From a virus, in IMG/VR virus record IMGVR_UViG_3300009154_000276, positions 1 to 24,249 of that record: 24,249 nucleotides of DNA. One strand, given 5' to 3'. The position numbers and the translations under genes are program-made. Below the pieces are notes generated by a model that did not search any database, had not been told where the DNA came from, and saw nothing but the letters and a program-made list of their open reading frames with translations. Each line of letters opens with the position of its first letter. The stretch's first letter is position 1. This document shows, piece after piece, positions 5,066 through 23,168 of this stretch.

Positions 5066-6159
5066 TGCCCAAGCTCGTCTCCGAACTCGCGCAGGGCAAA
5101 TCATTCAGCCGCAGTGCCGAAGGTGGCGGGCTTGCCGATCAGGCCACGCGAACGTGGAAGATTCTGCTCAACTCGCCGAACGAGTCATTCATCCTTTCGG
5201 AAGCTATCGGCGTCAACATCGGCGACCCTCTGGGGTCGCTGAACCCGATCCCGTGCGTCAGCATCGATGTCAAGGCAGACGGCGAGAGCCGCATGGTGCG
5301 GATCGTCACGGCGCAGTATCGCAGTAACCCCGGTATCGGCAGCGTAGACCCAGGCACGCAGTCGCCGACATTGCGTCCAGCGTTGTATTCGATGACAACG
5401 TCGCTGACGGAGATCGCTGCGTGGGGCGGCGCGCCGGTGACGAACGGCGAGTCTGGCGCGTGGATTCCGGCGGTGAACCCTGTCGGCGATCTTGTGGATG
5501 GGGTTACGCGACTCGAGCCGGTCGTGAACATCAACATCGATCAGTATTCTTCTTCGGACATGAGCCAACTGCTGGCTTACTGCGGATATGTAAACAGCGA
5601 CATATTCACGTTCTCGAATCTAAGCGTCGGCATTCACTGCTGTATGCTTCAAAGCATTTCGTCGCAGTCCATTGTTGAGCAATTTGGAGACGTGACGTTC
5701 AGAGGCTTCAAGGTTACGTTCGGGTTTGCTGTTAGGGCGCACTGGACAATCACTCGAGGTGGCTTCCAGGCCATTGGATGGGATATGGCCGTGCCGCAGA
5801 CGGGGTTTAATGTCATCAACTACGGCCTATCGTCACCAGATGTCGTTGACGTTGAAGCATTGACTCTTCAGCACGACGAAACCGGCAAGGTGCAACTCAA
5901 TAGCGCCGGAACGCCACAGACCTACGCTTTTGGGACTCAGACCAAAAGGACGAGGGCGATGGTTACGGTGCCCGCGACCCAAGGCGGATGGACACAGAGG
6001 CCGTCCGCCCAGCCGGTCGCACTCAACGACGACGGAACGCCGCGAAACACACGCGCGTTTCCGGTAGCCGAGAAAGTCCTCATCAACCGCATCTGCATCC
6101 AGCCCGAGATGGCTTTCGGCACTAACTTCTCAAACTTCGGCATACGCTGGTTCTCGTAA
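5065..6159 (+). CDS. Putative tail structural protein downstream of tape measure
   Basis: A 364-residue protein starting with an ATG that overlaps the tape-measure stop (TAATG), with an AGGAG motif 10 bases upstream, so translation is probably coupled. No signal peptide, membrane segment or catalytic motif is seen. Composition is that of a beta-rich virion protein: many Thr/Ser/Val/Gly residues, alternating hydrophobic strands (for example VVNINIDQYSS, VTFRGFKVTFGFAVRAHW) and no coiled coil. In siphophages the gene after the tape measure usually encodes a distal-tail or baseplate component, and that position is the main argument here. I do not recognise the family. A distal-tail (Dit-like) or hub-associated role is inference only. 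Confidence 0.7.
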   Translation: MPKLVSELAQGKSFSRSAEGGGLADQATRTWKILLNSPNESFILSEAIGVNIGDPLGSLNPIPCVSIDVKADGESRMVRIVTAQYRSNPGIGSVDPGTQSPTLRPALYSMTTSLTEIAAWGGAPVTNGESGAWIPAVNPVGDLVDGVTRLEPVVNINIDQYSSSDMSQLLAYCGYVNSDIFTFSNLSVGIHCCMLQSISSQSIVEQFGDVTFRGFKVTFGFAVRAHWTITRGGFQAIGWDMAVPQTGFNVINYGLSSPDVVDVEALTLQHDETGKVQLNSAGTPQTYAFGTQTKRTRAMVTVPATQGGWTQRPSAQPVALNDDGTPRNTRAFPVAEKVLINRICIQPEMAFGTNFSNFGIRWFS

Positions 6160-8879: not shown

Positions 8880-9018
8880 GCAGTGGCGGAAGACCGCCGA
8901 CTCGACGGGTGTCTCCGCATCTCAGATGGCGAGGACAATCGTTGAGAAGCTCACAGCTCGTGGCTACACACCTTCAAAATGGAAGCAAATCCAGCGATGG
9001 CTGACTCAGGAGGTCTGA
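8770..9018 (+). CDS. Small helical protein, putative DNA-binding (HTH-like)
   Basis: ATG 8770 is chosen over the longer frame from 8734 because AAGGAG (8757-8762) lies 7 bases upstream. The 82-residue product is all-helical: an N-terminal helix, then WFQGLSKEHQDAVLAVREQW, then SASQMARTIVEKLTARGY and a terminal helix KWKQIQRWL. The pattern (W-x-x-L-x-x-E-x-Q, then an Ala/Ile/Leu helix, RGY, and a WL end) matches small helix-turn-helix-like phage proteins that I recall next to phosphoesterases. It overlaps the phosphoesterase gene, suggesting coupled expression. The DNA-binding role is inferred. Confidence 0.7.
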   Translation: MDLATEILESAKPSPASLSWFQGLSKEHQDAVLAVREQWRKTADSTGVSASQMARTIVEKLTARGYTPSKWKQIQRWLTQEV

Positions 9019-10175
9019 CAGGTGACATCCTTTCGGCCGCGGCGGCCGCCGCATCGCCGAAGCCGGCCGCCGACGCAGAACAGGTGACGCAGCGTCGTGA
9101 GGGCGACGTGCTCGAGGCGCGTTCGACGAGCCGCCGCATCAAGACGGTCGATGATCTCCTCCAGCACATCGAAGCCGACTTATTCAAGATGGAGGTAGCT
9201 GCGAGTGAAGCCACGAAGTGGGAGGTCGCCACTGCTGGCGACAACGGCGAGCCAACGGTCACTGAGCTGCACCGCGTCTGGGTGCGGCTCAAGCCCAAGG
9301 CAGGGCCGGGGATCAAGGAAGCCGTCGAGGCGATGATCGCGGCGGCTGGGCTCCCGCGGGCGAAGCAGAAGCCGATCAAGCCAAAAGGGCGTGGCGACCT
9401 CTGGCAAGTTCTCGTCGTCGCCGACGCGCACTTTGGTAAATACGCCTGGGCGAAATCGACGGGCCATGAGGACTACGATCTGTCGCTGGCCGAGAAGATG
9501 GTCGGCGATGCGGGGATGTCCCTGCTAGATACCGGCGACACATATCAGCCAGCCCGCCGCACGATCCTGTTCCTGGGCGACCTGTTCAACGCCGACGGCC
9601 CAGCGGGAAACACGACGGCCGGCACGCCGCAGGACAACGACGGTCGCTTCCAGAAGATGATTCAAGTGGGCTGCGACACGCTCCTGTCGCTGGTCGAGCG
9701 ATCGGCGTCCACCGTTCCGACCGACGTGCTCGTTGTCAACGGGAATCACGACGAGACACTGACGGCCGCGTTCCGCAGGATTCTTCAAGAGCGGTTTCGC
9801 AACGACGGGCGGGTCGCCATCTCGCCGCACTACACGCGACGGCAATACGTCACTCACGGCAGCAACCTGATCGGCGCGGCCCACGGCGACAAGGCGAAGA
9901 AGCGGCTGCCGCAGATCATGGCGATGGAGGCGTCGTCCGAATGGTCGCGGTGCTGGTATCGAGAGTTCCACACCGGCCACCTCCACGCCCAGGCCGCCGA
10001 GCGGTCTATCGAATCGGTGGATTCTGTGGTGCTGCGAACAGCCCCGTCGATCACGCCACCAGACGAGTGGCACTCGGCGAGCGGGTACATCTGCTCACGG
10101 CAGTGCATGGAAACCTTCATCTACCTCCCCGAGGGCGGACTGACCGCCATGCACGTTGCGGGGCCGACACGATGA
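8979..10175 (+). CDS. Calcineurin-like metallophosphoesterase
   Basis: A two-metal phosphoesterase of the calcineurin/Mre11 superfamily. All signature motifs are visible: D149-x-H151 (VADAHFGK), GD201LFN, G-N256-H257-D258-E, H302 in AHGD, and the terminal G-H334-L-H336 (HTGHLH). The first ~130 residues form a separate N-terminal region, with an Ala/Pro-rich linker followed by helices. Substrate is unknown. Phage members are thought to act on nucleic acids or nucleotides, but there is no SbcC-like partner nearby. ATG 8979 overlaps the upstream gene by 40 bases. ATG 8997, with a weak GGAAG 11 bases upstream, is an equally reasonable start. The stop overlaps the deaminase start (ATGA). Confidence 0.92.
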   Translation: MEANPAMADSGGLTGDILSAAAAAASPKPAADAEQVTQRREGDVLEARSTSRRIKTVDDLLQHIEADLFKMEVAASEATKWEVATAGDNGEPTVTELHRVWVRLKPKAGPGIKEAVEAMIAAAGLPRAKQKPIKPKGRGDLWQVLVVADAHFGKYAWAKSTGHEDYDLSLAEKMVGDAGMSLLDTGDTYQPARRTILFLGDLFNADGPAGNTTAGTPQDNDGRFQKMIQVGCDTLLSLVERSASTVPTDVLVVNGNHDETLTAAFRRILQERFRNDGRVAISPHYTRRQYVTHGSNLIGAAHGDKAKKRLPQIMAMEASSEWSRCWYREFHTGHLHAQAAERSIESVDSVVLRTAPSITPPDEWHSASGYICSRQCMETFIYLPEGGLTAMHVAGPTR

Positions 10176-10651
10176 GCGACATCGACCGCCTCCACGACGC
10201 CTGCCGCTACGCCGTGCGGCACTCGCACGACCCAGACACTCAGAATGGTGCCGTGCTGGTGGCGGCCGGCGGCACGGTCTACGCCGCCAACTGCGTCCCG
10301 CCTGGGGTGGGACGCCCAGAGCATCGGCTCGCGCGGCCGTTCAAATACGACTTTATTGAGCACGCAGAGAGGGCGGCGATCTACAAGGCCGCTGAGATCG
10401 GCTTGGAGACGGCGGGGGCAACGCTCTACTGCCCCTGGTTCGCCTGCACAGACTGCGCCAGGGCGATCGTCTCGGCGGGCATCCGCGAGGTCGTCGGCCT
10501 GATCGCCCTCCGCAACGCCACGCCTGCCCGATGGCTGCTCAACGTGGAACTGGCCGAGAAAATGCTTGAGGAGGCCGGCGTCAGCCAGCGGCTGCTGGCC
10601 GGCAGCGTCGGGGTCACAATTCGATTCGACGGGAGGGATTTGCCATGCTGA
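10172..10651 (+). CDS. dCMP/cytidine deaminase-family protein
   Basis: A zinc-dependent nucleotide deaminase of 159 residues, probably converting dCMP to dUMP for thymidylate synthesis. The catalytic H64-A-E66 motif and the zinc pair C92-x-x-C95 (CTDCARAI) are intact, and the N-terminal SHDPDTQNGAVLV matches deoxycytidylate deaminases. ATG 10172 overlaps the phosphoesterase stop (ATGA), and the C-terminus overlaps the kinase gene by 7 bases. The longer frame from 9941 lies over the phosphoesterase gene and is not believed. With the next gene it forms a nucleotide-supply pair. A general cytidine or other deaminase specificity cannot be excluded without the allosteric residues being compared. 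Confidence 0.92.
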   Translation: MSDIDRLHDACRYAVRHSHDPDTQNGAVLVAAGGTVYAANCVPPGVGRPEHRLARPFKYDFIEHAERAAIYKAAEIGLETAGATLYCPWFACTDCARAIVSAGIREVVGLIALRNATPARWLLNVELAEKMLEEAGVSQRLLAGSVGVTIRFDGRDLPC

Positions 10652-11184
10652 TCGGACTCTGCGGGCCGGCTGGAGCCGGTAAGAATACGTTGGCGAATTT
10701 TTTAACTGATTCAAACGGCGGCCCGTTCGCTCAGGTTGCCTTCGCCGACCCACTCTACGAGTGCGTCTCGGCGATCACGGGCCTCTCCGTCTCACGCCTC
10801 AAGGATCGCGACGTGAAAGAGGCCGTCATCCCCTGGCTCGGCAAGTCGCCCAGGCAGTTGCTCCAGACCCTCGGCACCGAGTGGGGGCGAGGCACCGTCC
10901 ACCCCGAAATATGGATTCGCATCGCGATGGAGCGTGCAGCCCACCACTTGACCTTCAATGGCGTTGTCATCACCGACGTTCGGTTCGACAACGAGGCACA
11001 GGCCATCGTTGACGCGGGCGGCGAGGTCTGGCGGGTCGCACGCCCAGGCTGGCGGTGCCTTGCCGACGAATCGGCCGCGCACTCAAGCGAAGCTGGGGTG
11101 AGCGACCATCTGATCACCAGAACCATCGACAATTCGGGCTCCCTGGATGACCTCAAGCTGCAACTCAACGCTGCTACAATTTAA
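10645..11184 (+). CDS. Deoxynucleoside monophosphate kinase
   Basis: A 179-residue P-loop kinase that would phosphorylate dNMPs with ATP. Walker A is G7-P-A-G-A-G-K13-N-T15. Motifs typical of the phage dNMP kinase group (related to T4 gp1) are QLLQTLGTEWGR, then VVITDVRFDNEAQAI and the following G-G-E-V-W-R-V strand. A C-terminal HxSE-like region (AAHSSEAGVSDHLI) is also usual in the family. The ATG follows GGGAGG and overlaps the deaminase by 7 bases. Acting after the deaminase, it fits a dNTP-supply role. The Asn in the Walker A motif instead of Ser/Thr before the final Thr is a tolerated variant. Confidence 0.9.
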   Translation: MLIGLCGPAGAGKNTLANFLTDSNGGPFAQVAFADPLYECVSAITGLSVSRLKDRDVKEAVIPWLGKSPRQLLQTLGTEWGRGTVHPEIWIRIAMERAAHHLTFNGVVITDVRFDNEAQAIVDAGGEVWRVARPGWRCLADESAAHSSEAGVSDHLITRTIDNSGSLDDLKLQLNAATI

Positions 11185-11542: not shown

Positions 11543-11908
11543 GTGGCAAATTTCAGCCAGCTTCCAGGTGAATTAGGGCTAACTTTTATACCTGGAGACG
11601 AATGTTCAATCGCAGTGAACCTGCAAAGGTCAGTCGCCGGCTACACGTTCACGTCATTTATCTATCAGACCGACACTTCTACAACGGGCGGCGGGACGGG
11701 CCTGCTGAACAGCATCGGGAAGACGGTCGTGGCCCCGACGATTTCGATATCTAGCACCACTGCTGGGTCGATGATCGTCGGACTTTCAGAGGCCCAGACT
11801 GGGGTTCTTTCCCCAGGAACCAACTACCGCTGGTTCCTTCGGTGGGTCGCCCCCGGCGACATTACTCGCACGATTGTTAGCGGCACCGTCACGCCAGTGG
11901 CCCCATGA
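11543..11908 (+). CDS. Small beta-sandwich tail protein, paralogue of the gene at 15367
   Basis: 121 residues starting with GTG (GGTGA motif just upstream). The sequence is all-beta and shares a pattern with the protein at 15367: an N-terminal G-D/S-x-x-S-x-x-[IV]-x-[FL] strand, GY-[TF]-x-x strand, SIGL/NIAL-like strand ending in S-E/D-x-Q-T-x-x-L-x-x-G-T-Y/N, then W-x-L-x-W-x-[AT]-P-G and a final R-T-x-x-S-G-T-V strand. I recall this pattern from phage baseplate or fibre-associated proteins (BppU N-terminus-like), but naming is tentative. The stop overlaps the next start (ATGA). Confidence 0.7.
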   Translation: MANFSQLPGELGLTFIPGDECSIAVNLQRSVAGYTFTSFIYQTDTSTTGGGTGLLNSIGKTVVAPTISISSTTAGSMIVGLSEAQTGVLSPGTNYRWFLRWVAPGDITRTIVSGTVTPVAP

Positions 11909-14265
11909 GCGACATCTCTGTCACAGTCACGAACGCCGGCGCGACCGGCGTCTCCGTCGTTAACGGAGATGCGTTCAATACCGTTGTTGGCGACGGCGGC
12001 TCTGTGAATGTTTCGATTGGCGAAGTCACTCCCGGCAACGGAACGATCGTATCCGGCACGCTGACAATCAACAGTGTTGTTACGCTGCCAGCAGGCTCGT
12101 CGGCGTATGTGAAGAACGACGCCGGGACGGCCTATGCGGCGAAGCTTGACATCGGCCTGCCGGCGGGGCCGGCGACGAGCATCAACATTGGCAACACAAC
12201 GACCCTGTCTCCTGGGTCGAACGCCACCGTATCTGGCGTAGCCAATGGCAGCAACCTCACGCTTTCGTTTGGAATTCCTCGAGGTGCCAGCGGACTCAAC
12301 GGCGCTACGCCAAGTTTCTCCATAGGAAACGTGACGACTGGCGCGGCCGGATCGTCCGCGTCTGTCACTGCAACGACCGCCAACAGCGGAGCAAATGTCA
12401 CCCTAGACCTAACGATCCCACGCGGCAATCAGGGCACGAACGGGACGAACGGGACGAACGGCACGAACGGGACGAACGGTGTTACGCCGAGCTTCGCCAT
12501 TGGCAATGTGACGACTGGTGCAGCCGGATCGTCTGCGGCGGTGACGGCAACAACAACAAATAGTGGGGCTAACGTCACGCTAGACCTGACGATCCCGCGA
12601 GGGGATCAGGGCGTCAACGGCACAAACGGAACGGACGGAACGTCATTAACGCTTTCCGATGCCACGCCAGCCAACCTCGGGACGGCCTCTGCGGGAAGCA
12701 GCAACCTCGCAAGCAGAAGTGATCACACGCACGCGCTGCCGATTATCGCATACGCGAACCTGTCTGGCGTGCCCAGCAACTTCCCGACAAACACCACGCT
12801 CGTCTCGGGTTTGTCTGCTGGGTACGCGACCATCAATCACGGCCACAACTACGTTCAATCATTCAACAACTTGACTGGCAACCTCACGCTGGTGGCAGGA
12901 AGCAACGTCACGCTGACTGCAAACGGCTCGACCCTCACGCTGTCCAGCACTGGCGGGCTCGGTGCAAACGACTCAATCGATGGCGGCGACTACGTCGGGG
13001 AAATCTTCAACGGAATCACGATAACGTCGCAGCCTCTCAGCGCCAGCTCTGCGACGGCCGTTGTCTCATGGTCGTCGCAAACTTCGCCTTCTAATCTGAC
13101 CGTTTCGGGCTTGTCTTATGCAAATGGCGCATTTTTCGCGCTTGGAACCGGCAAAGTTGCAACATCGTCAAATCTGTCGGCGTGGACTAGCGCGAACCTC
13201 CCGCAGAACTTTGCTGCATCGGAGATGTCCTACGGCAATGGGGCGTATGTTGCTGCTGGTAAATCTTCATCCGCAGGCGGCATACCGTTCCCGGTCGCTA
13301 GGAGCACTGACGGAGCAACATGGTCATCTGCGTCTGGCGACACTTCTTTCAGCTACGACTTTTCTTCTATTGCATATGGCGGCGGCCTGTTTGTCGCAAT
13401 GCTGCAAGCACAGGCAAACTCGACGTACATCGTCAATTATTTCACGTCGCCAGATGGTTCGTCGTGGACGATGCGATCGATGCCGTACAACTCGGGGAAC
13501 GCGGTGCGAACCAGCGCGGTTTCTGACATTGCATATGGCAACGGCGTTTTTGTTGCCACTGTAAATTCAGTGAATCTTGACACTCGGTCTAATGTCCACA
13601 CGCAATATCTGACCAGCACCGACGGACTGACTTGGACGATTCGAGATTTGCCTTCCGCTTGCTGGAGTGGCGGCATTGCGTTTGGCAATGGCGTGTTTGT
13701 TTTGCTACCGCTTGCTGTTGGGAATCCTTACCCAGAAACAACTAACACTCTCTATACGTCAACAAATGGCGTGACATGGACTGCCGTGACGCTACCAGTG
13801 GCGAACTATTGGTCGCGCGTCAGATGGTGCGGCGGTGCGTTTGTGGCAACGAGGGGTGCTTTCGGTGTTGGAACCGGAACCGGCACAGACGTTATATGGA
13901 GTAGCACCGGGGCGTCGTGGACGCTCGGGTCGCTGCCGTCCTCTGGCGATTGGTTCTACGTCGCTGGTGGCGGCGGAACGGCTCTCGTAGCGTCGTCGTC
14001 GGCAATGGCAAAAGCGACTGTCGCGGCAGGCTCTGTCTCGTTTTCGACGGCAGCGACGATAGCGGGCGGGGCGACGTTGACGTATCAGTGGCAGGTCAGC
14101 ACAGACACCGGCTCGACTTGGTCGAACATCAGCAGCGCGACATCATCAACGCTGTCTCTTAGCGGCCTTACGATCAGTGATAGCGGCAAGCGGTATCGAT
14201 GCGCGATTTCCGCAACCGGCTCGGCTACCGCCTATACCCAACCAGCCATCCTCACGGTCACCTAG
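11905..14265 (+). CDS. Large tail fibre with collagen-like stretch and beta-propeller
   Basis: 786-residue fibre or adhesin. N-terminal Ser/Thr/Gly-rich beta region (residues 1-130), two copies of a 59-residue repeat (135-252) with a GTN collagen-like insert at about 177-191, a fibre motif DHTHALP near 272, and a Gly/Thr-rich shaft to about 380. Residues 400-690 hold six to seven units with [ILV]-x-[YF]-G-N-G-x-F-V-A then S-x-D-G-x-T-W, Asp-box-like, as in sialidase-type beta-propellers. The last ~78 residues (from about 709) are Ig-like, with YQWQVSTDTGSTW and GKRYRCAIS. ATG overlaps the previous stop. A host-surface-binding role is inferred from these modules. No enzymatic residues are recognised. 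Confidence 0.85.
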   Translation: MSDISVTVTNAGATGVSVVNGDAFNTVVGDGGSVNVSIGEVTPGNGTIVSGTLTINSVVTLPAGSSAYVKNDAGTAYAAKLDIGLPAGPATSINIGNTTTLSPGSNATVSGVANGSNLTLSFGIPRGASGLNGATPSFSIGNVTTGAAGSSASVTATTANSGANVTLDLTIPRGNQGTNGTNGTNGTNGTNGVTPSFAIGNVTTGAAGSSAAVTATTTNSGANVTLDLTIPRGDQGVNGTNGTDGTSLTLSDATPANLGTASAGSSNLASRSDHTHALPIIAYANLSGVPSNFPTNTTLVSGLSAGYATINHGHNYVQSFNNLTGNLTLVAGSNVTLTANGSTLTLSSTGGLGANDSIDGGDYVGEIFNGITITSQPLSASSATAVVSWSSQTSPSNLTVSGLSYANGAFFALGTGKVATSSNLSAWTSANLPQNFAASEMSYGNGAYVAAGKSSSAGGIPFPVARSTDGATWSSASGDTSFSYDFSSIAYGGGLFVAMLQAQANSTYIVNYFTSPDGSSWTMRSMPYNSGNAVRTSAVSDIAYGNGVFVATVNSVNLDTRSNVHTQYLTSTDGLTWTIRDLPSACWSGGIAFGNGVFVLLPLAVGNPYPETTNTLYTSTNGVTWTAVTLPVANYWSRVRWCGGAFVATRGAFGVGTGTGTDVIWSSTGASWTLGSLPSSGDWFYVAGGGGTALVASSSAMAKATVAAGSVSFSTAATIAGGATLTYQWQVSTDTGSTWSNISSATSSTLSLSGLTISDSGKRYRCAISATGSATAYTQPAILTVT
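12307..12660 (+). repeat. Two direct 177-bp coding repeats in the fibre gene
   Basis: Unit one starts at 12307 and unit two at 12484. Both encode a TPSF[SA]IGNVTTGAAGSS block and end with LDLTIPRG followed by a collagen-like N/D-Q-G stretch. Protein identity is high while many third codon positions differ, so this is an older duplication kept in frame. Confidence 0.85.
12433..12477 (+). repeat. Five 9-bp tandem repeats encoding Gly-Thr-Asn
   Basis: Five contiguous GG[CG]ACGAAC units give (GTN)5 in the fibre, a collagen-like Gly-x-x run. A shorter version (NGTNGTDG) recurs at the end of the second 177-bp unit. The 9-bp length keeps the reading frame, so slippage would change shaft length without a frameshift. 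Confidence 0.9.
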
Positions 14266-14269
14266 ACAC

Positions 14270-15208
14270 ATGGCTAATAAAGTAAAACCAGCGCGGTCGT
14301 GGGTGGCAAACTATGTGCCAACCGTGCTTGACGCCAACGAGCTGGCGATCAACTGGGTGGACGCGAAGGCGTACACGAAAGACCCAGGCGGCAACATTGT
14401 CAGCATCACTCTCGGTGGTGGCAGCAGCGGTGGCGGTGGTGCCGACGCTGTGCTGCGGGCATTATTCGTCCCCGCTGCGCCAACAAGCGTGACGGCAAGT
14501 GCCGGCAACGCACAGGCAGTCGTGTCGTGGACTGCGCCAACCGTTTTGTCGGTCACGCCAATCACTGACTATGTCGTGCAGTTCAGCAGCAATTCCGGTT
14601 CTTCGTGGACAACTTTTGATGATGGCAGCAACACGTCAACAAGTGCGACTGTCACTGGGTTGACCAATGGCACTGCGTATGTGTTCAGAGTGGCTGGCGT
14701 GAACGGCGTGGGCGTCGGGAGCTACTCCACGGCATCAAATTCGGTGACGCCGAGTAACGCAGTGTTCCGCGCGATCCCGACTCTGACGAGCAACACGTCG
14801 GATGGAACGGCAGAGGCAAACACGGTTGGCGGTGGTGCTGTTTGGAATTTGTTTGACGGCAGTAGCAGCGAATACAACACGGCACGAAACGGCTCGGACA
14901 CGCCAAAGAGGTATTTTCAATACACGTTCGCCGGTGGCGTAAAGTCTTACATCGGCGGCTACACGTTCACTGGGATGGGCAGCAGGGACTACAGCATTGG
15001 CGGGTGGGAGTTTTCGGGTAGTAACGATGGATCGACGTTCACGCTGCTTGACTCGCAAGTCATCTCATGGCAAAGCGGCGGGCAAACGAAGTCTTTTACG
15101 CTGGCGTCACCGGCGAATTACTCGACTTATCGATGGACTCTTACGCCTGACGGCACGAGCGACTCGTTTGCTGGCCTGAGTGCGGTGCAGTTAAACGCTG
15201 TGTCGTAA
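14270..15208 (+). CDS. Fibronectin-III fibre protein with discoidin-like C-terminus
   Basis: 312 residues from ATG 14270, four bases after the previous stop. The longer frame to 14177 lies over the large fibre and is not used. N-terminus MANKVKPARSWVANYVPTVLDANELAINW is a probable attachment module (about 1-60, ending in a Gly-rich hinge). Residues ~64-165 are a fibronectin type III domain (AAPTSVTA, VSWTAPT, ITDYVVQFS, ATVTGLTNGTAYVFRVAGVN). Residues ~165-312 look like an F5/8 type C (discoidin) sugar-binding fold: GGYTFTG, W-E-F-S-G-S-N-D-G-S-F, RWTLTPDG. A homologous but divergent pair of domains recurs at 18335. Predicted host-receptor binding. Confidence 0.78.
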   Translation: MANKVKPARSWVANYVPTVLDANELAINWVDAKAYTKDPGGNIVSITLGGGSSGGGGADAVLRALFVPAAPTSVTASAGNAQAVVSWTAPTVLSVTPITDYVVQFSSNSGSSWTTFDDGSNTSTSATVTGLTNGTAYVFRVAGVNGVGVGSYSTASNSVTPSNAVFRAIPTLTSNTSDGTAEANTVGGGAVWNLFDGSSSEYNTARNGSDTPKRYFQYTFAGGVKSYIGGYTFTGMGSRDYSIGGWEFSGSNDGSTFTLLDSQVISWQSGGQTKSFTLASPANYSTYRWTLTPDGTSDSFAGLSAVQLNAVS

Positions 15209-15211
15209 AGC

Positions 15212-15370
15212 ATGAACGACAACGAAACCATCACCGTCGCCCTTGCCTACGCGGCTCTCGCGTTGGTCGGCCCCGTCATCCTTACGCGGTTGCTCCAGTG
15301 GGCCGAAAGCGACGAGGCGCAGAATCTGGCATATGAGATCGGCATGGCAATTGAGGGGGCGACACGATGA
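15212..15370 (+). CDS. Small membrane protein, 52 aa
   Basis: Short gene from ATG 15212, three bases after the previous stop, to a stop overlapping the next start (ATGA). The product begins MNDNETITVALAYAALALVG. A hydrophobic helix covers about residues 7-28, followed by a charged amphipathic tail (QWAESDEAQNLAYEIG). It sits directly before the small beta-sandwich gene, just as the membrane protein at 11225 does. No family is recognised. Holin-like or membrane-anchoring roles are guesses. Tight coupling on both sides supports it as real. Confidence 0.6.
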   Translation: MNDNETITVALAYAALALVGPVILTRLLQWAESDEAQNLAYEIGMAIEGATR

Positions 15371-15693
15371 GCAGCACATACAGCTTGCTACCCGGCACAA
15401 TGAATCTTGCCTTTAAGAAGTCTGGAGACTTCTCGACTCTGATCGACTTCGACGGCACTACTCTCGTCGGCTACACCGTAACGGCGAGCATGACGAGCCT
15501 CGTCACTGGTACTACCGTGATACCATTCTCGACGACGATCACCGACGCCTCCTCTGGTCAAGTCAACATCGCACTCACAGACACGCAGACCGCCTCTCTC
15601 GCCGCTGGCACCTACGGCTGGCAACTGGGTTGGACGGCACCCGGCAGCGTGCAGCGGACTGCTCTGAGCGGCACCGTGGAGGTCTACGCATGA
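15367..15693 (+). CDS. Small beta-sandwich tail protein, paralogue of the gene at 11543
   Basis: 108 residues, all-beta: LPGTMNLAFKKSGDFSTLIDF, then GYTVTASM, NIALTDTQTASLAAGTYGW, LGWTAPGS and RTALSGTVEVYA. Each block corresponds to one in the protein at 11543, although sequence identity is modest. GAGGGGG lies upstream, the start overlaps the previous stop (ATGA), and the next gene starts the same way, so the three genes here are a coupled set. Baseplate or fibre-attachment role is inferred from family resemblance and neighbours. Confidence 0.72.
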   Translation: MSSTYSLLPGTMNLAFKKSGDFSTLIDFDGTTLVGYTVTASMTSLVTGTTVIPFSTTITDASSGQVNIALTDTQTASLAAGTYGWQLGWTAPGSVQRTALSGTVEVYA

Positions 15694-15965
15694 CGCAGAT
15701 CACGGCGAGTGTTTCGTCGCAGCCGATCACGGCGACAGTCAACGCCTCGGGGAACATCTCCGCGAGCGTCGGCTCGTCTGTCGTGACGGCAAATGCTGGC
15801 GGTGGCATCGGGCCGCAGGGGCCAGCGGGCAATGCTGGTGCTGGTCTCGGAGACCTTGTTGATGTGAACTTGTCGAGTGTGCAGGACGGTGATGTTTTGC
15901 GGTATGGCGCGACGAAGTGGCACAACGTCAACGAAATTCAACTTACAGACGGCGGAAATTTTTAG
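15690..15965 (+). CDS. Short collagen-like fibre protein
   Basis: 91 residues from ATG 15690, chosen because GGAGGT lies 6 bases upstream and ATGA overlaps the previous stop. The longer frame from 15630 reads over the upstream gene. The N-terminus is a repetitive Ser/Thr/Val beta region (ITASVSSQPITATVNASGN), followed by collagen-like GPQGPAGNAGAGLG, then a fibre motif DLVDVNLSSVQDGDVLRYG and W-x-N-V-N. Such DGDVLRY segments are usual in phage fibre shafts. It parallels the front part of the large fibre at 11905, as a miniature version lacking the adhesin domains. Confidence 0.7.
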   Translation: MTQITASVSSQPITATVNASGNISASVGSSVVTANAGGGIGPQGPAGNAGAGLGDLVDVNLSSVQDGDVLRYGATKWHNVNEIQLTDGGNF

Positions 15966-15983
15966 TCCAAGGAGGATTTTGCG

Positions 15984-17072
15984 ATGTCGAACGTCATTCG
16001 GATAAAGAGAAGAAACGCAAACGGTGCCGCAGGCGCGCCGTCAAGCCTTCAGCAAGCGGAGCTTGCTCTGAATGAAGCAGACGGCGTTCTCTACGCTGGC
16101 TTCGGAACCGGCGGTGCGGGCGGCAGCGCGACTACGATCGCATCGATTGGCGGCACAAACTGGGCGAGCAAGGCGTATGTCACCAGCGCGGTCGCTGCCG
16201 TGGACGTTTCCTCGCAGCTTGCCAGCTACGCTCTCCTCGCATCGCCAACGCTAACCGGCACGCCAAACTCGACGACCCCCAGCACGTCTGACAACTCGAC
16301 TCGCATCGCAACCACCGCGTATGTCCAGGCTCAGTCCTATGTGACGACGGCTGCGAGGCTCGACCAGTTCGCCGTGCCGACGAGCAGCGTGTCGATGAAC
16401 TCGCAGAAGATCACGAACCTCGGGACGCCAACAGCCGACGGCGATGCCGTCAGTAAGTCCTATGCCGACGCTCTCCGCAGCGGACTTGACGTGAAGCAGT
16501 CAGTGCGAGCCGCTACCACGGCGAACATCACGCTCTCAGGCACGCAGACGATCGACGGCGTGGCCGTGATCGCTGGAGACCGGGTGCTGGTCAAGAATCA
16601 GTCATCGGGCTTGCAGAACGGCATCTATGTCGTCGCGGCTGGCTCGTGGTCGCGGGCTACGGACGCAGACGCAGACTCAGAGATCAATCCGGGGATGTTC
16701 TGCTTCGTCGAGGAAGGCACGGTCGGCGCGGACACGGGCTGGGTCTGCTCGAACAACGCTCCGACGACCGTCGGCACCACGGCCCTAACTTTCGCTCAGT
16801 TCAGCGGTGCAGGCTCGTTCTCTGTGGATTCGACCCTGACCAAGACCGGCAACTCGATCGGCCTGACCTCGGGCATCGCCACCGCTGGCACCTACACGAG
16901 CGTTACGGTTGACACCTACGGTCGCGTGACGGCGGGCAGCACCCCAGCGATGCAGTCGCAGATCACGGCAGTCGGCCTGCTCAAGGGGGCGGGTGCGGGC
17001 AGCGTGTCGGCGGCGGTGGCAGGGACGGATTACCTCGATGGCAACAGCACTCTTGATTGCGGAAGCTTTTGA
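15984..17072 (+). CDS. Tail fibre protein with Mtd-like N-terminal module
   Basis: 362 residues with the best ribosome-binding site of the array (AAGGAGG 8 bases upstream). The N-terminus VIRIKRRNANGAAGAPSSL, then ELALNEADGVLYAG, fits the conserved N-terminal attachment module of many phage fibres (as in the Bordetella phage tropism determinant and others). The middle has ITNLGTPTADGDAVSKSYAD and VKNQSSGLQNGIYVV, both frequent in fibre shafts. The C-terminus carries TVDTYGRVTAGSTP and a short Gly/Ala end. Predicted trimeric, beta-rich shaft. It probably links the fibre cluster to the baseplate. No receptor-binding domain is recognised at its C-terminus. Confidence 0.8.
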   Translation: MSNVIRIKRRNANGAAGAPSSLQQAELALNEADGVLYAGFGTGGAGGSATTIASIGGTNWASKAYVTSAVAAVDVSSQLASYALLASPTLTGTPNSTTPSTSDNSTRIATTAYVQAQSYVTTAARLDQFAVPTSSVSMNSQKITNLGTPTADGDAVSKSYADALRSGLDVKQSVRAATTANITLSGTQTIDGVAVIAGDRVLVKNQSSGLQNGIYVVAAGSWSRATDADADSEINPGMFCFVEEGTVGADTGWVCSNNAPTTVGTTALTFAQFSGAGSFSVDSTLTKTGNSIGLTSGIATAGTYTSVTVDTYGRVTAGSTPAMQSQITAVGLLKGAGAGSVSAAVAGTDYLDGNSTLDCGSF

Positions 17073-17075
17073 TCG

Positions 17076-18332
17076 ATGGCGAACACGATCCGTAACCTTT
17101 ACTCGAACACGGCAGGCAACACGCCTTCGTCGCTTGGCAACGGCGTCATCGCCCTGAATCAAGCCGATGGCAAGTTGTTCTACCGCTCGTCTGCCGGTGT
17201 CGTCACGGCACTGGCAACAGGCAGTGGCGGTGCAACGCAGGTGTACGAGTACGCGACGACGGCGAACTTCCCTGCCACTGGCAGTGCTGCTCAGTTGGTT
17301 ATCGCGACCGACACGGGGCGAGTCTATCGTTGGGCGGGTGCTTCTTACATCGAGATTGGCCCTCTCGGTGGTGCCGCGACTGACACGCGGTGGGATTTGT
17401 TCTTGCCTGCCGCCCCAACAAGCGTGACGGCGATGTCTGGCGATACGCAAGCCACATTGTCTTGGACTGCTCCAACTGTGGCTGTTCCAGTGACGGACTA
17501 CCTCGTCCAATACTCTTCCAACTCTGGGTCTTCTTGGACGGCGTTTAGCCGATCTGCTTCTACTGCCACAAGTGCGACGGTCACAGGGCTAACCAACGGA
17601 ACAAGCTATGTGTTCCGCGTAGCGGCGGTTAACGGTGTTGGCACCGGAAGTTACTCATCAAGCAGTAACAGTGTCACAGTGGGTGGAGATCCCTATTTCT
17701 CGTCAGTTGCGCTGTTGCTCCGAATGGACGGCACAGGAAACACGTTTACGGATTCCAGCGGCACGCCAAAGACGATCACAGCCAGTGGCAACGCAACGCA
17801 ATCGACTGCCCAGAGCAAGTTTGGTGGAAAGAGCGCGTATTTTGCGGCATCTGGAGATTATCTCTCGATGTCTGGCGTAAACGTAGGCACGTCGGATTTC
17901 ACGATTGAAATGTGGGTCAAGACGGCAAGCAGCGTGCAATACGCACAGCTTATAGGTAACGAAAATGCCTCAACAAACGAAGGATTTTCCCTGCTCATAA
18001 ACAACAACTCCTCTACTGGCGGACAGATCGCTCTGTACCGCGGAGGCTTGGTTGTTTCAACGCCTTCTGGCGATTACTCAGACGATGCTTGGCATCACGT
18101 TGCGGTGAGTAGAAGCGGAACAACTGTGAGGTTGTACGTTGACGGCACGCTTGCCTCAACAGGAACATCATCGTCAAGTTTTTCGTCGACTGCGCCAATG
18201 TATATCGCCTACAACAGCCAGTTTCCGCCGAGAAACATGATTGGCTATATAGACGATGTCAGAGTCAGCACCGTGGCAAGGTACACAGGATCAACGCTCA
18301 CCGTCCCAGCAGCGGCATTTACTAACTTTTAA
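17076..18332 (+). CDS. Fibronectin-III fibre protein with LamG-like C-terminus
   Basis: 418 residues. N-terminal module MANTIRNLYSNTAGNTPSSLGNGVIALNQADGKLF is a relative of the preceding protein's N-terminal pattern. A T-x-x-V-Y-R-W-x-G-x-S-Y-x-E-I-G-P element follows (about 85-100), then a linker DTRWDLFLPAAPTSVTA. A fibronectin type III domain covers ~108-204 (SWTAPT, TDYLVQYSSNSGSSW, TSYVFRVAAVN). The last ~205 residues are a LamG/concanavalin-like jelly roll: LLLRMDGTGNTFTDSSG, FGGKSAYF, DFTIEMWVK, WHHVAVSRSG, VRLYVDGTLA, IDDVRV. The family binds glycans, so this is a likely receptor-binding fibre. It shares 26 identical bases with the next gene at the domain junction. Confidence 0.85.
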   Translation: MANTIRNLYSNTAGNTPSSLGNGVIALNQADGKLFYRSSAGVVTALATGSGGATQVYEYATTANFPATGSAAQLVIATDTGRVYRWAGASYIEIGPLGGAATDTRWDLFLPAAPTSVTAMSGDTQATLSWTAPTVAVPVTDYLVQYSSNSGSSWTAFSRSASTATSATVTGLTNGTSYVFRVAAVNGVGTGSYSSSSNSVTVGGDPYFSSVALLLRMDGTGNTFTDSSGTPKTITASGNATQSTAQSKFGGKSAYFAASGDYLSMSGVNVGTSDFTIEMWVKTASSVQYAQLIGNENASTNEGFSLLINNNSSTGGQIALYRGGLVVSTPSGDYSDDAWHHVAVSRSGTTVRLYVDGTLASTGTSSSSFSSTAPMYIAYNSQFPPRNMIGYIDDVRVSTVARYTGSTLTVPAAAFTNF

Positions 18333-19500
18333 ACATGGCACTCTCCCTCCCAGCATCACCGACAGTCGGTCAACTATCCGTTCAAAACGGCCGCACCTAC
18401 ACATGGAGCGGCTATGCGTGGGAGTTGACGCTCGCTGCCATCGGCACAACTACGGCCGAATACGCGGCTACGACCGCGTTCCCCTCGCCGGGCGTTGCCG
18501 GAATCTTGTATGTGGCGACAGACACGGCAAAAACATATCGCTGGACGGGCAACTCTTACGCGGAGCTTGGCCCGGTCGGCGGCAGCGTGGCCGACACGCG
18601 GTGGGATTTGTTCTTGCCCGCTGCGCCGACCAGCGTGACGGCATTTGCTGGCAATGCGCTGGTGACAGTGTCATGGACTGCACCAACTGTTCTGGCGCAG
18701 ACACCGATCACCGACTACACCGTGCAGTATTCGACAAACTCTGGGTCGTCTTGGACAACGGTTAGCAGGTCGGCATCAACGGCAACGAGCGCGGTCGTCA
18801 CAGGACTAACAAACGAAACAAGCTACGTTTTCCGCGTGGCGGCGGTGAATGGAGTCGGAACCGGCAGCTACTCAACGGCAAGCAGCGCTGCGACACCGGC
18901 GTCGTATGTTTTCCGCGCGATCCCGGTTCTTACGAGCGCGACATCCAGCGGCGTTGCATCGGCCAGCGCAACTCTAAACACCCAATTGCAGGCTTGGCGC
19001 GCGTTTGATAAGACGACTATCAATGACAACACCTACTACGCATCACCTGGTAATTGCGTTGGACATTGGATTCAATACGACTTTGGCAGTGGCGTATATA
19101 GCAACATTGGGGGGTACTCTATTACCTCGCGCTACAACACTGAATACGGTGATTCTACTTATGGAGAATCCCAAGCCCCAGTTAGTTGGACTTTTTCTGG
19201 TTCAAACAATGGAACAGACTTTGTAGTTTTGGACACTCGCACAAACTATCAATCGTTTACTTCAAATGGGCAGCCCAGAACATTTACATTATCAGCCGCG
19301 GCAAATTATCGCATATTTCGATGGACGTGGACAGCTAACACACCCTCTACCGCAGTAGTCATTCCCAAGCTTCAGCTTGTTTCCCCGTAAAACCTGACTT
19401 TTAACCGTGGCACTCTCATTCCCATCATCGCCAAGTGTCGGTCAATTGTCCTCGCAGAACGGTCGCACGTTTACTTGGACAGGTTCGGCGTGGGACTTGG
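18325..19500 (+). repeat. Duplicated start region of two adjacent fibre genes
   Basis: Copy one begins at 18325 and copy two at 19397, offset 1,072 bp. Both have ACTTTTAA, two bases, a start codon (ATG or GTG), then GGCACTCTC and the same MALS-x-P-x-SP-x-VGQL-S-x-QNGRT-[YF]-TW protein start over about 90-100 bp. In copy one the TAA of the repeat is the stop codon of the upstream gene. In copy two it is a non-coding remnant. Confidence 0.75.
18335..19390 (+). CDS. Fibronectin-III fibre protein with discoidin-like C-terminus (second)
   Basis: 351 residues. N-terminus MALSLPASPTVGQLSVQNGR then Y-T-W-S-G-Y-A-W is shared with the next gene. A second Y-R-W-T-G-N-S-Y-A-E-L-G-P element and DTRWDLFLPAAPTSVTA are shared with the previous gene. 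Fibronectin type III domain at ~91-189. The C-terminal ~160 residues are discoidin-like, similar in pattern to those of the 14270 protein (GGYSITS, SWTFSGSNNGTDF, RTFTL, YRIFRWTWT). The C-terminal part is visibly AT-richer than its surroundings, consistent with separate acquisition. No ribosome-binding site is visible, so translation probably depends on coupling with the previous gene (stop 2 bases upstream). Confidence 0.82.
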   Translation: MALSLPASPTVGQLSVQNGRTYTWSGYAWELTLAAIGTTTAEYAATTAFPSPGVAGILYVATDTAKTYRWTGNSYAELGPVGGSVADTRWDLFLPAAPTSVTAFAGNALVTVSWTAPTVLAQTPITDYTVQYSTNSGSSWTTVSRSASTATSAVVTGLTNETSYVFRVAAVNGVGTGSYSTASSAATPASYVFRAIPVLTSATSSGVASASATLNTQLQAWRAFDKTTINDNTYYASPGNCVGHWIQYDFGSGVYSNIGGYSITSRYNTEYGDSTYGESQAPVSWTFSGSNNGTDFVVLDTRTNYQSFTSNGQPRTFTLSAAANYRIFRWTWTANTPSTAVVIPKLQLVSP

Positions 19501-19685
19501 CTACCAACGTCGCAGCGCATGCTTCATCGCACGGCTCAAGCGGCGGTGATCCGATAACTCCCGCCGCCATCGGTGCGGCTGCGACAAGTCACTCGCACGC
19601 GGCAAGCGACATAACCAGCGGGACGCTCGCGCAGGCCCGCCTAGATTTCATCCCGATTCATCCGTTTCTATTGATGGGAGGCTGA
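19407..19685 (+). CDS. Short fibre protein sharing its N-terminus with the previous gene
   Basis: 92 residues from GTG 19407, the position aligned with the ATG of the upstream paralogue. The first ~30 residues repeat that paralogue's N-terminus (MALSFPSSPSVGQLSSQNGR). Then comes a fibre motif set HASSHGSSGGDPITPAAIG and SHSHAASDITSGTLAQARL, standard in phage shafts. There is no C-terminal adhesin domain, so this is either a short stand-alone piece or a fibre truncated by the recombination that made the duplication. The next gene follows after one base. Confidence 0.65.
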   Translation: MALSFPSSPSVGQLSSQNGRTFTWTGSAWDLATNVAAHASSHGSSGGDPITPAAIGAAATSHSHAASDITSGTLAQARLDFIPIHPFLLMGG

Positions 19686-21148: not shown

Positions 21149-21270
21149 GAGCAGTCCTGTCGAAGTGCCTCGCAGCCATCGCCATCGCAATAGCCATCGT
21201 CGCGCAGGCTCTCATGTTCGCTGCCGAGACCCTCGGAGACATGAGCGATGAGTGGAACTCCGACTCCTAG
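21133..21270 (+). CDS. Small membrane protein, ~41-45 aa
   Basis: A short frame running out of the end of the preceding gene. Start is either GTG 21133 (GAGG 10 bases upstream) or TTG 21145, which overlaps the previous stop as TTGA. The product is mostly one hydrophobic helix (LSKCLAAIAIAIAIVAQALMF) followed by an acidic tail ending in DMSDEWNSDS. It ends with TAG inside a CTAG shared with the integrase stop on the other strand. Holin-like or Rz1-like roles are guesses. Reality is moderately likely from coupling and composition. Confidence 0.5.
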   Translation: MGGALRAVLSKCLAAIAIAIAIVAQALMFAAETLGDMSDEWNSDS

Positions 21271-22121
21271 ACAACCTTGGGCAGGACGCTCGGGGCCGGC
21301 ACGCCTGGGCTGACGATCCTGGGGTCAAGGTATTTTTTCGTGACCGCAGGACTCGAGTGATCAAGCAGCCGCTGGGCTGACCCGCCGGCCGCCTCGTAGT
21401 AGCTCGCCGTAGTCTTCCTGATCCTGTGGAACTTGCACCGCCGATCGCTGGGCAGTCCAGCTCGCTGAAGGATGATCTTCAAGATTCGCCAAAGGCATGT
21501 GCGGTGCCGATCCCAAGGAATCGCCGTGTCGTCGGGGCCGCGGCGAATCGCCAGAAGGGCGTCGGCGCATTCGACGCTGATTTCGCGGAGGATGTCCCGC
21601 CGCCGCCCCTTGCGCTCCTCGGCGCGGAAGATCACGTTGCACCCGCGAACGTCGCCGGCCCGCACATCAACGACCGAAGCTATCCGTTCGCCCGTGTCGT
21701 AGCAAAGAAGTAGGATCGCCTTCCACACCGCCGCCGCGGGAAAGCCGCCGATGCGGCCCTGCTCCTGGGCGGCGGCAGCCAGGATCGCCTTCATCTCGTC
21801 GGTCAGCCATGCCTCGGGGATTCGCTCTGGCACGATAATCCGCGGCACCTGCGGCCAAGTGTCGCAGAGCTTTCTGCGGGCGCAGAACTCCCAGAGAGCG
21901 CGAACCTGGGCGCGATCCTTGGCTGCCGTGGCCGCCGACAGCTCGCGGATGCGGCGGGCCAGAAACCGGGCCACCGACAACTCCTCGAGATCGGTGGTCT
22001 CTGGCGGACGCCCGAGCACATCGCCCCAGGATCGCAGCGTGTATCCGTATAGCGTGATCGTGCGGTCGCTGACGCCTGTCAGCGGCGCGTAGAGATCACG
22101 CAGGACGTGGTGCAAGAGCAT
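21267..22121 (-). CDS. int: Tyrosine recombinase (phage integrase)
   Basis: Site-specific recombinase of the lambda Int/XerC family that would integrate and excise the phage. From ATG at 22121 the protein has 284 residues: N-terminal core-binding (SAM-like) domain with helices to about 100, then the catalytic domain with R146 (DTGERIASV), K171, H232-x-x-R235 (FHRIRKT), H255 (LLDHSS) and Y264 (KKYLD), a full catalytic set. ATG 22121 is chosen because AAAGGAG sits 9 bases upstream. The frame extends 18 codons further to 22175, through the terminator T-run. No typical N-terminal arm-binding domain is evident, so it is a short integrase. It is transcribed towards the fibre array, convergent with it. 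Confidence 0.93.
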   Translation of the reverse strand: MLLHHVLRDLYAPLTGVSDRTITLYGYTLRSWGDVLGRPPETTDLEELSVARFLARRIRELSAATAAKDRAQVRALWEFCARRKLCDTWPQVPRIIVPERIPEAWLTDEMKAILAAAAQEQGRIGGFPAAAVWKAILLLCYDTGERIASVVDVRAGDVRGCNVIFRAEERKGRRRDILREISVECADALLAIRRGPDDTAIPWDRHRTCLWRILKIILQRAGLPSDRRCKFHRIRKTTASYYEAAGGSAQRLLDHSSPAVTKKYLDPRIVSPGVPAPSVLPKVV

Positions 22122-22130
22122 GGGGTGTCT

Positions 22131-22145
22131 CTCCTTTAAAAGGAG
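22131..22145 (-). promoter_or_regulatory. Integrase ribosome-binding site inside a perfect inverted repeat
   Basis: On the minus strand CTCCTTT, T, AAAGGAG reads as a 7-1-7 inverted repeat, 9 bases before the integrase ATG. The AAAGGAG half is the Shine-Dalgarno motif. A transcript could fold with CTCCT pairing to AGGAG over a 5-base loop, hiding the ribosome site. It could equally be a DNA operator. Confidence 0.5.
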
Positions 22146-22162
22146 TACCACTTCCATGCGAG

Positions 22163-22199
22163 AAAAAAAGAACACGCGCCCCCCCTTGGGGGGGCGCGT
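22163..22199 (-). terminator. Strong intrinsic terminator upstream of integrase
   Basis: Twelve-base-pair stem: ACGCG plus seven C (22174-22185) against seven G plus CGCGT (22188-22199), with the inner C-G pair closing only two bases (effectively a tetraloop). On the minus strand the stem is followed after four bases by seven T (complement of the A-run at 22163-22169). It would end transcription from the small gene at 22218 before integrase. Confidence 0.8.
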
Positions 22200-22217
22200 T
22201 GGGAAAGAAATTTTCCC

Positions 22218-22421
22218 TTATGAGAGTTCCGAAAACTTTTCCGGCGTCAGGACAAAAGCGCTTGTTAGGCGGCAATGAGGCCACTGTGAGCCAATTGTTC
22301 GCAACCACTTCTCGCGGGCCTTCTCTGCGGCCTGGGCGGGTGTGGGCGTCACCACGACGATCTCGTCGGCATCGAGTTGAGACTCTGACTCCCATTCGCA
22401 AATCACCGTGTAGCGAGGCAT
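22218..22421 (-). CDS. Small protein upstream of integrase, 67 aa
   Basis: 67 residues with a good ribosome-binding site (GGAGGT 8 bases before the ATG). Sequence MPRYTVICEWESESQLDADE, then IVVVTPTPAQAAEKAREKW, reads as strand, strand, helix, strand, a compact alpha/beta fold rather than shadow coding. Directly after its stop come a GGGAAA/TTTCCC hairpin and the strong terminator, so it is probably a one-gene transcript. It has no helix-turn-helix, so an excisionase role is not supported, although position between the control region and integrase suggests a related accessory. No family is recognised with confidence. Confidence 0.65.
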   Translation of the reverse strand: MPRYTVICEWESESQLDADEIVVVTPTPAQAAEKAREKWLRTIGSQWPHCRLTSAFVLTPEKFSELS

Positions 22422-22471
22422 CAGCAGGCACCTCCATGTGTCTTCCTTGTGGGGGCTGGCTTTTTGCCGGC

Positions 22472-22502
22472 CCGTGTGGCACCATGCGTCGGTTCCACAC
22501 GG
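22472..22502. repeat. Perfect 8-bp inverted repeat in the control region
   Basis: CCGTGTGG (22472-22479) and CCACACGG (22495-22502) are exact inverted copies separated by 15 bases, with half-site centres 23 bases (about two helical turns) apart. The spacing suits a dimeric DNA-binding protein or recombinase arm sites. The likely candidates are the tandem-wHTH protein encoded at 22629 or the integrase. Confidence 0.5.
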
Positions 22503-22507
22503 CTGTA

Positions 22508-22527
22508 TTCAAATCCCCTATCCTCCA
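22508..22527 (+). other. Possible attP core resembling a tRNA 3' end
   Basis: TTCAAATCCCCTATCCTCCA reads like the T-loop, T-stem 3' side, acceptor 3' strand and discriminator of a tRNA. No matching 5' half is present (no GGAGGAT upstream on the plus strand, no T-stem partner). A bare tRNA 3' end in the control region of an integrase-bearing phage is the usual form of an attP. Chance similarity over 20 bases is possible. Confidence 0.3.
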
Positions 22528-22628
22528 CTCGTCAAGAGGGGGGCCGTGACGATTAGGCGAAAGTTGGCTTTTGGGCAGGCCACGCGGGTATTCTTCATCG
22601 GCGGCCAGATCGCCAGAAGGCAGACAGC

Positions 22629-23168
22629 ATGGCAAAGAAGCAGATCGATCAGGCAATCGGCTCCTGGGAGGCCGCGTGCCTCTTGGGCGTGCATTGGACA
22701 ACCCCCGCCAGAATGGTGGGGAAGGGGCTCCTGACGAGCCGCACCCTGGCATCCCCGGTAGTCAGCGACCCCGAGCGTGTGTTCAGCATCTACTCCCTTG
22801 CTGAGTGCGAGGCCGACTGGGAGGAATACTCTGAGCAACTCAAGCAGGGCGGCTCCGGCAAGCGGCCTCGTGCTGGCGTTGACCTCCGGCCGCCGATGGT
22901 CAAGGCATTGGCCGCGCTCAAGCACCAGATCGCATTCGGCGATGCCGTCTCGACCGGCGAGGCCGCGGAGATCATGAACGTCCATTGGACGTTCCCGCCG
23001 AGGATGGCGCAGCAGGGGAAGATCGTGGCGAGGATTCTCGTCAACGCGAGAAATAACCGCAGCCGATGCTGGATTTTCTCGCGAGCCGCCTGCGAAGCTA
23101 ACGTGTCCCTCGCCCGCCGGCTGCAAACGGCCGGCACGAAAAAAGGTCGGCACAGAAACCTCGCTTGA
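22629..23168 (+). CDS. Protein with two tandem winged-HTH-like domains
   Basis: 179 residues with two related units. Unit one (about 12-70) has SWEAACLLGVHWTTPARM, then KGLLTSRTL and IYSLAECEADW. Unit two (about 108-165) has STGEAAEIMNVHWTFPPRM, then QGKIVARIL and IFSRAACEANV. The shared pattern EAA-x-[LI]-[LM]-x-V-HWT-x-P-x-RM with a wing and a C-terminal CEA helix resembles MerR/excisionase-type winged helix-turn-helix folds, but the HWT core is unlike the usual one. They are joined by a basic linker (KQGGSGKRPRAG). The start has AGAAGG upstream. It divides the control region from the helicase and may be an excisionase, repressor or activator. Family certainty is moderate. Confidence 0.7.
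   Translation: MAKKQIDQAIGSWEAACLLGVHWTTPARMVGKGLLTSRTLASPVVSDPERVFSIYSLAECEADWEEYSEQLKQGGSGKRPRAGVDLRPPMVKALAALKHQIAFGDAVSTGEAAEIMNVHWTFPPRMAQQGKIVARILVNARNNRSRCWIFSRAACEANVSLARRLQTAGTKKGRHRNLA

Follow-up and report, generated by a model that had tools for sequence, protein, structure and literature searches.

Exchanged anchors and tips around a fibronectin type III block in the fibre genes of an uncultured tailed phage

The stretch analysed here (the window) comprises the 24,249 bases of virus record IMGVR_UViG_3300009154_000276, from an uncultured tailed phage; the subject is a fibre locus with three genes, A, B and C, in each of which a fibronectin type III (FN3) domain lies between an N-terminal anchor piece and a C-terminal tip. 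These modules occur re-combined among related phages, with crossovers at or inside the FN3 block, and the locus is probably a set of small adhesin genes built from exchangeable parts that are swapped by homologous recombination. In an open reading frame (ORF) check all three genes were present: A at 14270-15208 (312 amino acids, aa), B at 17076-18332 (418 aa) and C at 18335-19390 (351 aa). Alignment and module hidden Markov models (HMMs) gave the module orders N_A, FN3, CBM32-like tip for A; N_B, Link, FN3, LamG tip for B; and N_C, Link, FN3, discoidin-like tip for C. The modules, with the short gene D that follows them, are listed below; L and G numbers are our handles for loci and relatives in other phages, and genes without a letter go by their start coordinate.

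14270..14464, + strand: N-terminal anchor piece of A, type N_A (N_C instead in L005; retained in L098).
14465..14758, + strand: FN3 of A (Pfam fn3, 3.6e-13; crossover relative to L005 at about 14636-14644).
14759..15205, + strand: CBM32/discoidin-like tip of A (VIA-align Z 15-16.6 to CBM32 structures; phrog_17517, 2e-13).
17076..17399, + strand: N-terminal anchor N_B and Link module of B, Link at 17244-17396 (alignment, module HMMs).
17400..17687, + strand: FN3 of B (Pfam fn3, 1.9e-15; nearest FN3 in L097, 86%).
17688..18329, + strand: LamG (concanavalin-A-like lectin) tip of B (Pfam Laminin_G_3, 2.3e-23; relatives at 23 viral loci).
18335..18610, + strand: N-terminal anchor N_C and Link module of C, Link at 18458-18607 (N_C DNA as in gene 19407, Link as in B).
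18611..18904, + strand: FN3 of C (Pfam fn3, 4e-14; nearest FN3s in L008 and L005, 83%).
18905..19387, + strand: diverged discoidin/CBM32-like tip of C (F5_F8_type_C, 2.6e-6; phrog_17517, 9e-22).
19407..19685, + strand: short gene D, N_C anchor and conserved C-terminus ending in ARLDFIPIHPFLLMGG (comparison with L005).
17382..17407 and 18593..18618, + strand: 26-base block in two identical copies (exact match).

Gene C has Link and FN3 in common with B, FN3 and a diverged tip in common with A, and its N-terminus in common with gene 19407 (D); because these parts match different genes, C is a chimera relative to A and B. The N_C DNA common to C and D (18322-18427 and 19394-19499) is 75% identical over 106 nucleotides (nt) and takes in the bases immediately before the start codon.

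The strongest cases of exchange come from four loci. L005 is near-isogenic with the window (flanks 92.2% and 90.5% identical at the nt level), and in it the FN3 and tip block of A (14463-15823, 85.5%) is attached to N_C instead of N_A; it lacks 17207-19607, so that B, C and most of gene 19407 are gone, and a single 129-aa gene made of the B N-terminus and the last 25 residues of D stands in place of B, C and D (those 25 aa are 92% identical to the end of D). L098 has the gene order of the window (11543-11905-A-15212) and retains the N_A-FN3 part of A at 62% aa identity, but carries a LamG tip (56% to B over FN3 and tip); its downstream gene 15212 is kept at 77%, and DNA homology stops at 14751, the FN3 end, and restarts at 15210, just past the A stop. 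In L095 tip A recurs at 91% aa identity without FN3, behind a Thr-rich linker, with homology from 14761, on a contig that carries no other gene of the window. L097 has homologues of A, B and D, and C is absent. The exchange of C-terminal tips claimed in the earlier note is thus borne out by the replaced tips in L098 and L095, and that of N-terminal attachment pieces by N_C for N_A in L005. Judged by sequence, fragments are shared with otherwise unrelated proteins or with close relatives whose remainder is non-homologous (L095, L005, L098), which is the mark of a domain-mosaic receptor-binding protein.

The same pattern was seen more broadly. Scans of viral contigs with gene C gave 54 loci, with tip A three and with tip B 23; a query with gene 5065 gave 23 close relatives (69-90%), whose fibre regions were compared where available. 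About 50 distinct architectures of seven modules occur among the fetched loci. Fibre matches occur in 14 related records, where the flanks are conserved (11225 at 81-93%, 15367 at 75-79%, integrase at 70-95%) and the fibre stretch is different; between these flanks the fibre genes vary in number, order and domains. Most close relatives have short tipless genes where B stands; in wider relatives (L007, L010, L011, L015, L097) a B-like gene that has its tip precedes a D-like gene; G011 carries an N_C-FN3-LamG-FN3-discoidin protein, and G014 and G016 carry an 18-FN3 protein in the fibre region. Comparison with related phages had been set beforehand as the refuting test; the genes were not colinear in it, and the tips were exchanged.

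Two side observations belong to these loci. Tip A is near-identical in the very different phages L095 (91% aa) and L005 (86-88% aa), whose contig names both include IMG sample number 3300027963, and the common sample number suggests exchange of this tip within one habitat. A protein of 2098 aa is encoded at the same locus in L090 (12678-18971; also L092); about 18 FN3 domains follow one another in it, and it also has a single LamG and, at the C-terminus, a discoidin-like domain.

The module assignments were made against Pfam gathering cut-offs of 25 bits for fn3 (PF00041) and 27.6 for Laminin_G_3 (PF13385), and the curated cut-off of 28.2 for F5_F8_type_C (PF00754). The fn3 profile exceeds its cut-off in A (50 bits), B (57.3) and C (53), in agreement with the FN3 domains first read in each gene, and the LamG/concanavalin-A-like domain likewise proposed for the end of B lies at residues 259-401 with 83.4 bits. 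Tip C reaches 28.0 bits for F5_F8_type_C (E 2.6e-6), 0.2 bits short of the cut-off, and matches the CBM region of the GH92 enzyme 7nsn (E 1e-8). It is homologous to tip A at 39% identity, and phrog_17517 is common to the C-termini of A (2e-13) and C (9e-22), so that its description as a second, diverged discoidin-like end holds as that of a homologue of tip A. For tip A itself no significant Pfam F5/8 match was found. Structure prediction, proposed by the earlier note as a check, was made for A from a 16-row alignment (predicted local distance difference test score, pLDDT, 76), and structures were compared by VIA-align: the tip A model superposes on CBM32 domains with Z 15-16.6 and root-mean-square deviation (rmsd) 2.2-2.5 A over 124-134 residues, among them 4a42 (Z 15.7), 7blg (Z 15.6) and 4a41 (Z 15.5), at rmsd 2.3-2.5. 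The predicted fold of tip A is the CBM32/F5-8C jelly roll, and the discoidin-like reading of this C-terminus is upheld by the model. The model of the A FN3 superposes on solved FN3 domains, e.g., 4n68 (Z 14.6, rmsd 1.8 over 96 residues).

Crossover points were located in triplets of sequences. With L005, A and C, the first part of the L005 FN3 sides with C (9:45 informative sites) and the remainder with A (49:0); the breakpoint lies at window 14636-14644, with a permutation P of 1e-4, the minimum for 10,000 shuffles. With L097, B and C, sequence left of the 26-base block sides with C (13:27) and sequence right of it with B (46:15; Fisher p 2.8e-5), the best breakpoint being about 30 nt downstream of the block (P 0.001). 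In a crossover scan of 19 genes, most of the others too diverged to be informative, only L097 was significant after correction (1.7e-4 x 19 = 0.003). As estimated from these alignments, the crossovers lie at or inside the FN3 block.

The earlier note had also pointed to 26 bases shared by B and C, exactly at the boundary before FN3, as a likely recombination point. The two copies are identical, as claimed, and no other exact direct repeat of the window is as long. They lie inside a longer homology block and not at its start: the B/C alignment begins at B aa 53 and C aa 37, about 150 nt before the repeat, and continues to the FN3 end, with 69% nt identity overall (Link and FN3). Because homology extends both upstream and through FN3, the repeat does not mark where shared sequence gives way to unshared. 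Its translation, DTRWDLFLP, is a motif that other phages retain, and 24 of the 26 bases are identical in the relatives G001 and G002. An identical run of at least 26 has P = 0.053 given the amino-acid alignment and 0.019 with codon columns shuffled freely, so that by sequence the repeat is, taken alone, weak and marginally unexpected evidence. A conserved DNA recombination site was considered and rejected: a comparison of 46 FN3 genes put codon identity at 0.382 in the junction and 0.383 elsewhere, and because the junction has no extra codon conservation, the repeat is dismissed as a general recombination site. Of the recombination claim, crossovers at or inside FN3 stand; the repeat as their point does not fare as well, being marginal alone and about 30 nt upstream of the L097 breakpoint.

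In the favoured explanation the N-terminal piece (N_A, N_B or N_C) probably docks onto the virion fibre, followed in some genes by a Link module, then by the FN3 connector and a C-terminal tip of carbohydrate-binding type (LamG or CBM32/discoidin). Homologous recombination between phages, by way of similar FN3 blocks and conserved flanking genes, would exchange anchors and tips and gain or lose entire genes. The tips would likely attach the phage to host-surface glycans, a tip swap would alter the glycan recognised, and the two p132-like collar proteins described below would anchor the side-fibre adhesins; virion location, docking, p132-like anchoring, glycan binding and host-range change are inferred. 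A bolder version, in which FN3 is kept mainly as a universal splice platform, a homology arm for free exchange of anchors and tips that supplies two fibre arrays on the same particle, each with its own collar, is doubtful.

Adjacent and homologous as they are, A, B and C could instead have arisen by local duplication of one ancestral fibre gene whose copies diverged within the genome, with no exchange between phages; the 106 nt common to C and D, start-codon context included, and the Link and FN3 common to B and C would fit such a history. Against it, the best match of each FN3 (83-86%) is in another phage and closer than the paralogues, which in the case of B share 75-77% with it (A and C). 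Since their nearest neighbours are in other phages, the FN3 domains of A, B and C come from a shared pool and are not recent mutual copies; the "one fibronectin-III core" of the earlier note is accordingly one FN3 family. Tip A is 88-92% identical to L005 and L095, tip C is closest to L006 (63%; 61-63% for L006 and L007), and tips A and C share only 39%, to which the crossover tests with L097 and L005 are added. Duplication as the sole explanation is disfavoured by these FN3 and tip identities, and we hold it improbable. Less probable still is site-specific, shufflon-like switching of tips by the tyrosine recombinase (21267-22175) or another system. A gene of the phage integrase family does adjoin the fibre cassette; it resembles an ordinary phage integrase, however, and relatives have the same integrase (70-95%) beside very different fibres. 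The tips are flanked by no substantial inverted repeats (best pairs 16-30 nt at 70-94%), and every fibre match is on the + strand, with no silent reversed tips found. An invertible tip cassette was rejected, as neither inverted recombination sites around the tips nor reversed silent tips were found.

Passive adhesins, with FN3 and LamG serving to make the particle stiffer, to decorate it or to keep it on polysaccharide or mucus while host range is set by other means, are a further reading that we regard as rather unlikely. Neck and major tail proteins are known to carry added carbohydrate-binding modules (PMC6669499), and T5 can do without its L-shaped side fibres (PMC10038345); yet a recognition role is the better fit to the fast replacement of end domains between phages that are nearly identical and to the linkage with collar-like anchors, and host binding was reported for two such modules (PMC6669499). 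Several points do weigh against exchangeable, host-recognising adhesins. FN3 and LamG may serve as structural decoration; some of A, B and C may not be expressed, or the three may not share one particle; and their binding, virion position and effect on host range are predictions from sequence. C folded from a single sequence reached a pLDDT of 35 only. The loci were retrieved by fibre or tip matches, which enriches for common modules; the permutation tests take sites as independent; and L005 and L097 were chosen after the alignments had been inspected.

The fibre system exceeds the three genes and comprises two cassettes, each headed by a collar-like gene, with these further members.

11543..11908, + strand: p132/LtfC-like collar (fibre anchor) homologue heading cassette 1 (family profile against the Protein Data Bank, PDB; Pfam LtfC).
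11905..14265, + strand: large fibre/stalk gene of cassette 1 (phrog_4120 minor tail protein, 4e-12).
15367..15693, + strand: second p132/LtfC-like collar homologue, heading cassette 2 (same family as 11543).
15984..17072, + strand: fibre gene with B-type N-terminus, cassette 2 (phrog_11518 tail fiber, 5e-46; N_B module match).

Genes 11543 and 15367 are paralogous (33% identity). Their family profile matches 8hqz, an L-shaped tail fibre assembly (E 1.4e-4), and 7qg9, T5 p132 (E 0.01), in the PDB, and Pfam LtfC was found in 3 of 15 family members (best 1.6e-4); the collar similarity is weak, and the window copy of 15367 alone falls short of a match. Both genes are present in related records spanning both positions, and because they are kept there, a two-collar, two-array fibre is a reasonable reading; their sequences suggest that 11543 and 15367 may anchor two fibre arrays. 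Gene 11905 is hypervariable: in phages that match its neighbouring genes at 80-99% identity, its own matches are partial, at 31-36%. The stretch from the tail genes to the fibre cassette (8979-11184) holds phosphoesterase-like (PdeM-like, weak), dCMP-deaminase-like and dNMP-kinase-like genes, conserved in relatives.

The principle of mosaic receptor-binding proteins is already known, and the window is a clear, well-documented new example. As in the proteins described by Smug et al. 2023 (PMC10684548), non-homologous C-terminal binding domains behind a conserved N-terminus are exchanged between close phages, and fragments are common to otherwise unrelated proteins; in the window, from a phage group that is uncultured, the exchanged modules are instead FN3, LamG and CBM32-like, carried by short genes in tandem, and the words "fibronectin", "laminin" and "concanavalin" are absent from the main text of that paper. 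A literature search for phage, discoidin and fibronectin together found nothing relevant. The T5 protein p132 makes up a dodecameric collar to which the L-shaped fibres are attached, and its Ig fold is linked to the N-terminus of BppU (PMC10038345). The T5-like phages DT57C and DT571/2 have branched fibres, LtfA/LtfB (PMC4728585), on the p132/LtfC collar (PMC10038345), and resemble the window in having at least two adhesin genes whose recognition domains differ, in gain or loss of these genes and in a p132-like collar gene nearby; the window, in contrast, has two collar paralogues in place of one and a putative virion attachment, and the likeness to T5-type Ltf is one of arrangement. Carbohydrate-binding modules of the 936-group lactococcal siphophages (PMC6669499) are likewise reusable sugar-binding "bricks" on structural proteins, but in another host group and with other modules, whereas the tips of the window are C-termini of dedicated small genes with predicted binding. 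LamG/concanavalin-A-like domains are also found in cyanophages and Rhizobium phages (e.g., Synechococcus phage S-SKS1): a search with B gave 381 phage records, the best of them matching over the tip; identity is below 60% and no record covers 80% of B.

Together, the window, L005, L095, L097 and L098 form a natural series in which anchor, connector and tip are separately replaced, with crossovers at or inside FN3, and the series makes the idea of a connector domain as recombination platform testable. The locus also suggests that fibres with two collars occur in a group of uncultured phages for which the collection of isolate phages yielded no relative. Gene C had no match among isolate phages, and a scan of viral contigs with gene 7540 gave zero matches. 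A fibre profile gave FN3- or LamG-type matches only, in mixed bacteria, and none of these 78 loci had another gene of the window; neither this search nor that of the genome collection with the 5065 protein turned up a host genome. The 364-aa protein encoded at 5065-6159 is highly conserved, at 69-90% in 23 viral contigs; PHROG, Pfam, isolate phages and the genome collection yielded no relative of it, and it may mark an undescribed phage group. Near the end of the window, ORFs on opposite strands overlap (22096-22752, - strand; 22629-23168, + strand) and both are matched in relatives; the + strand ORF (67-96% conserved) is probably the real gene of the two.

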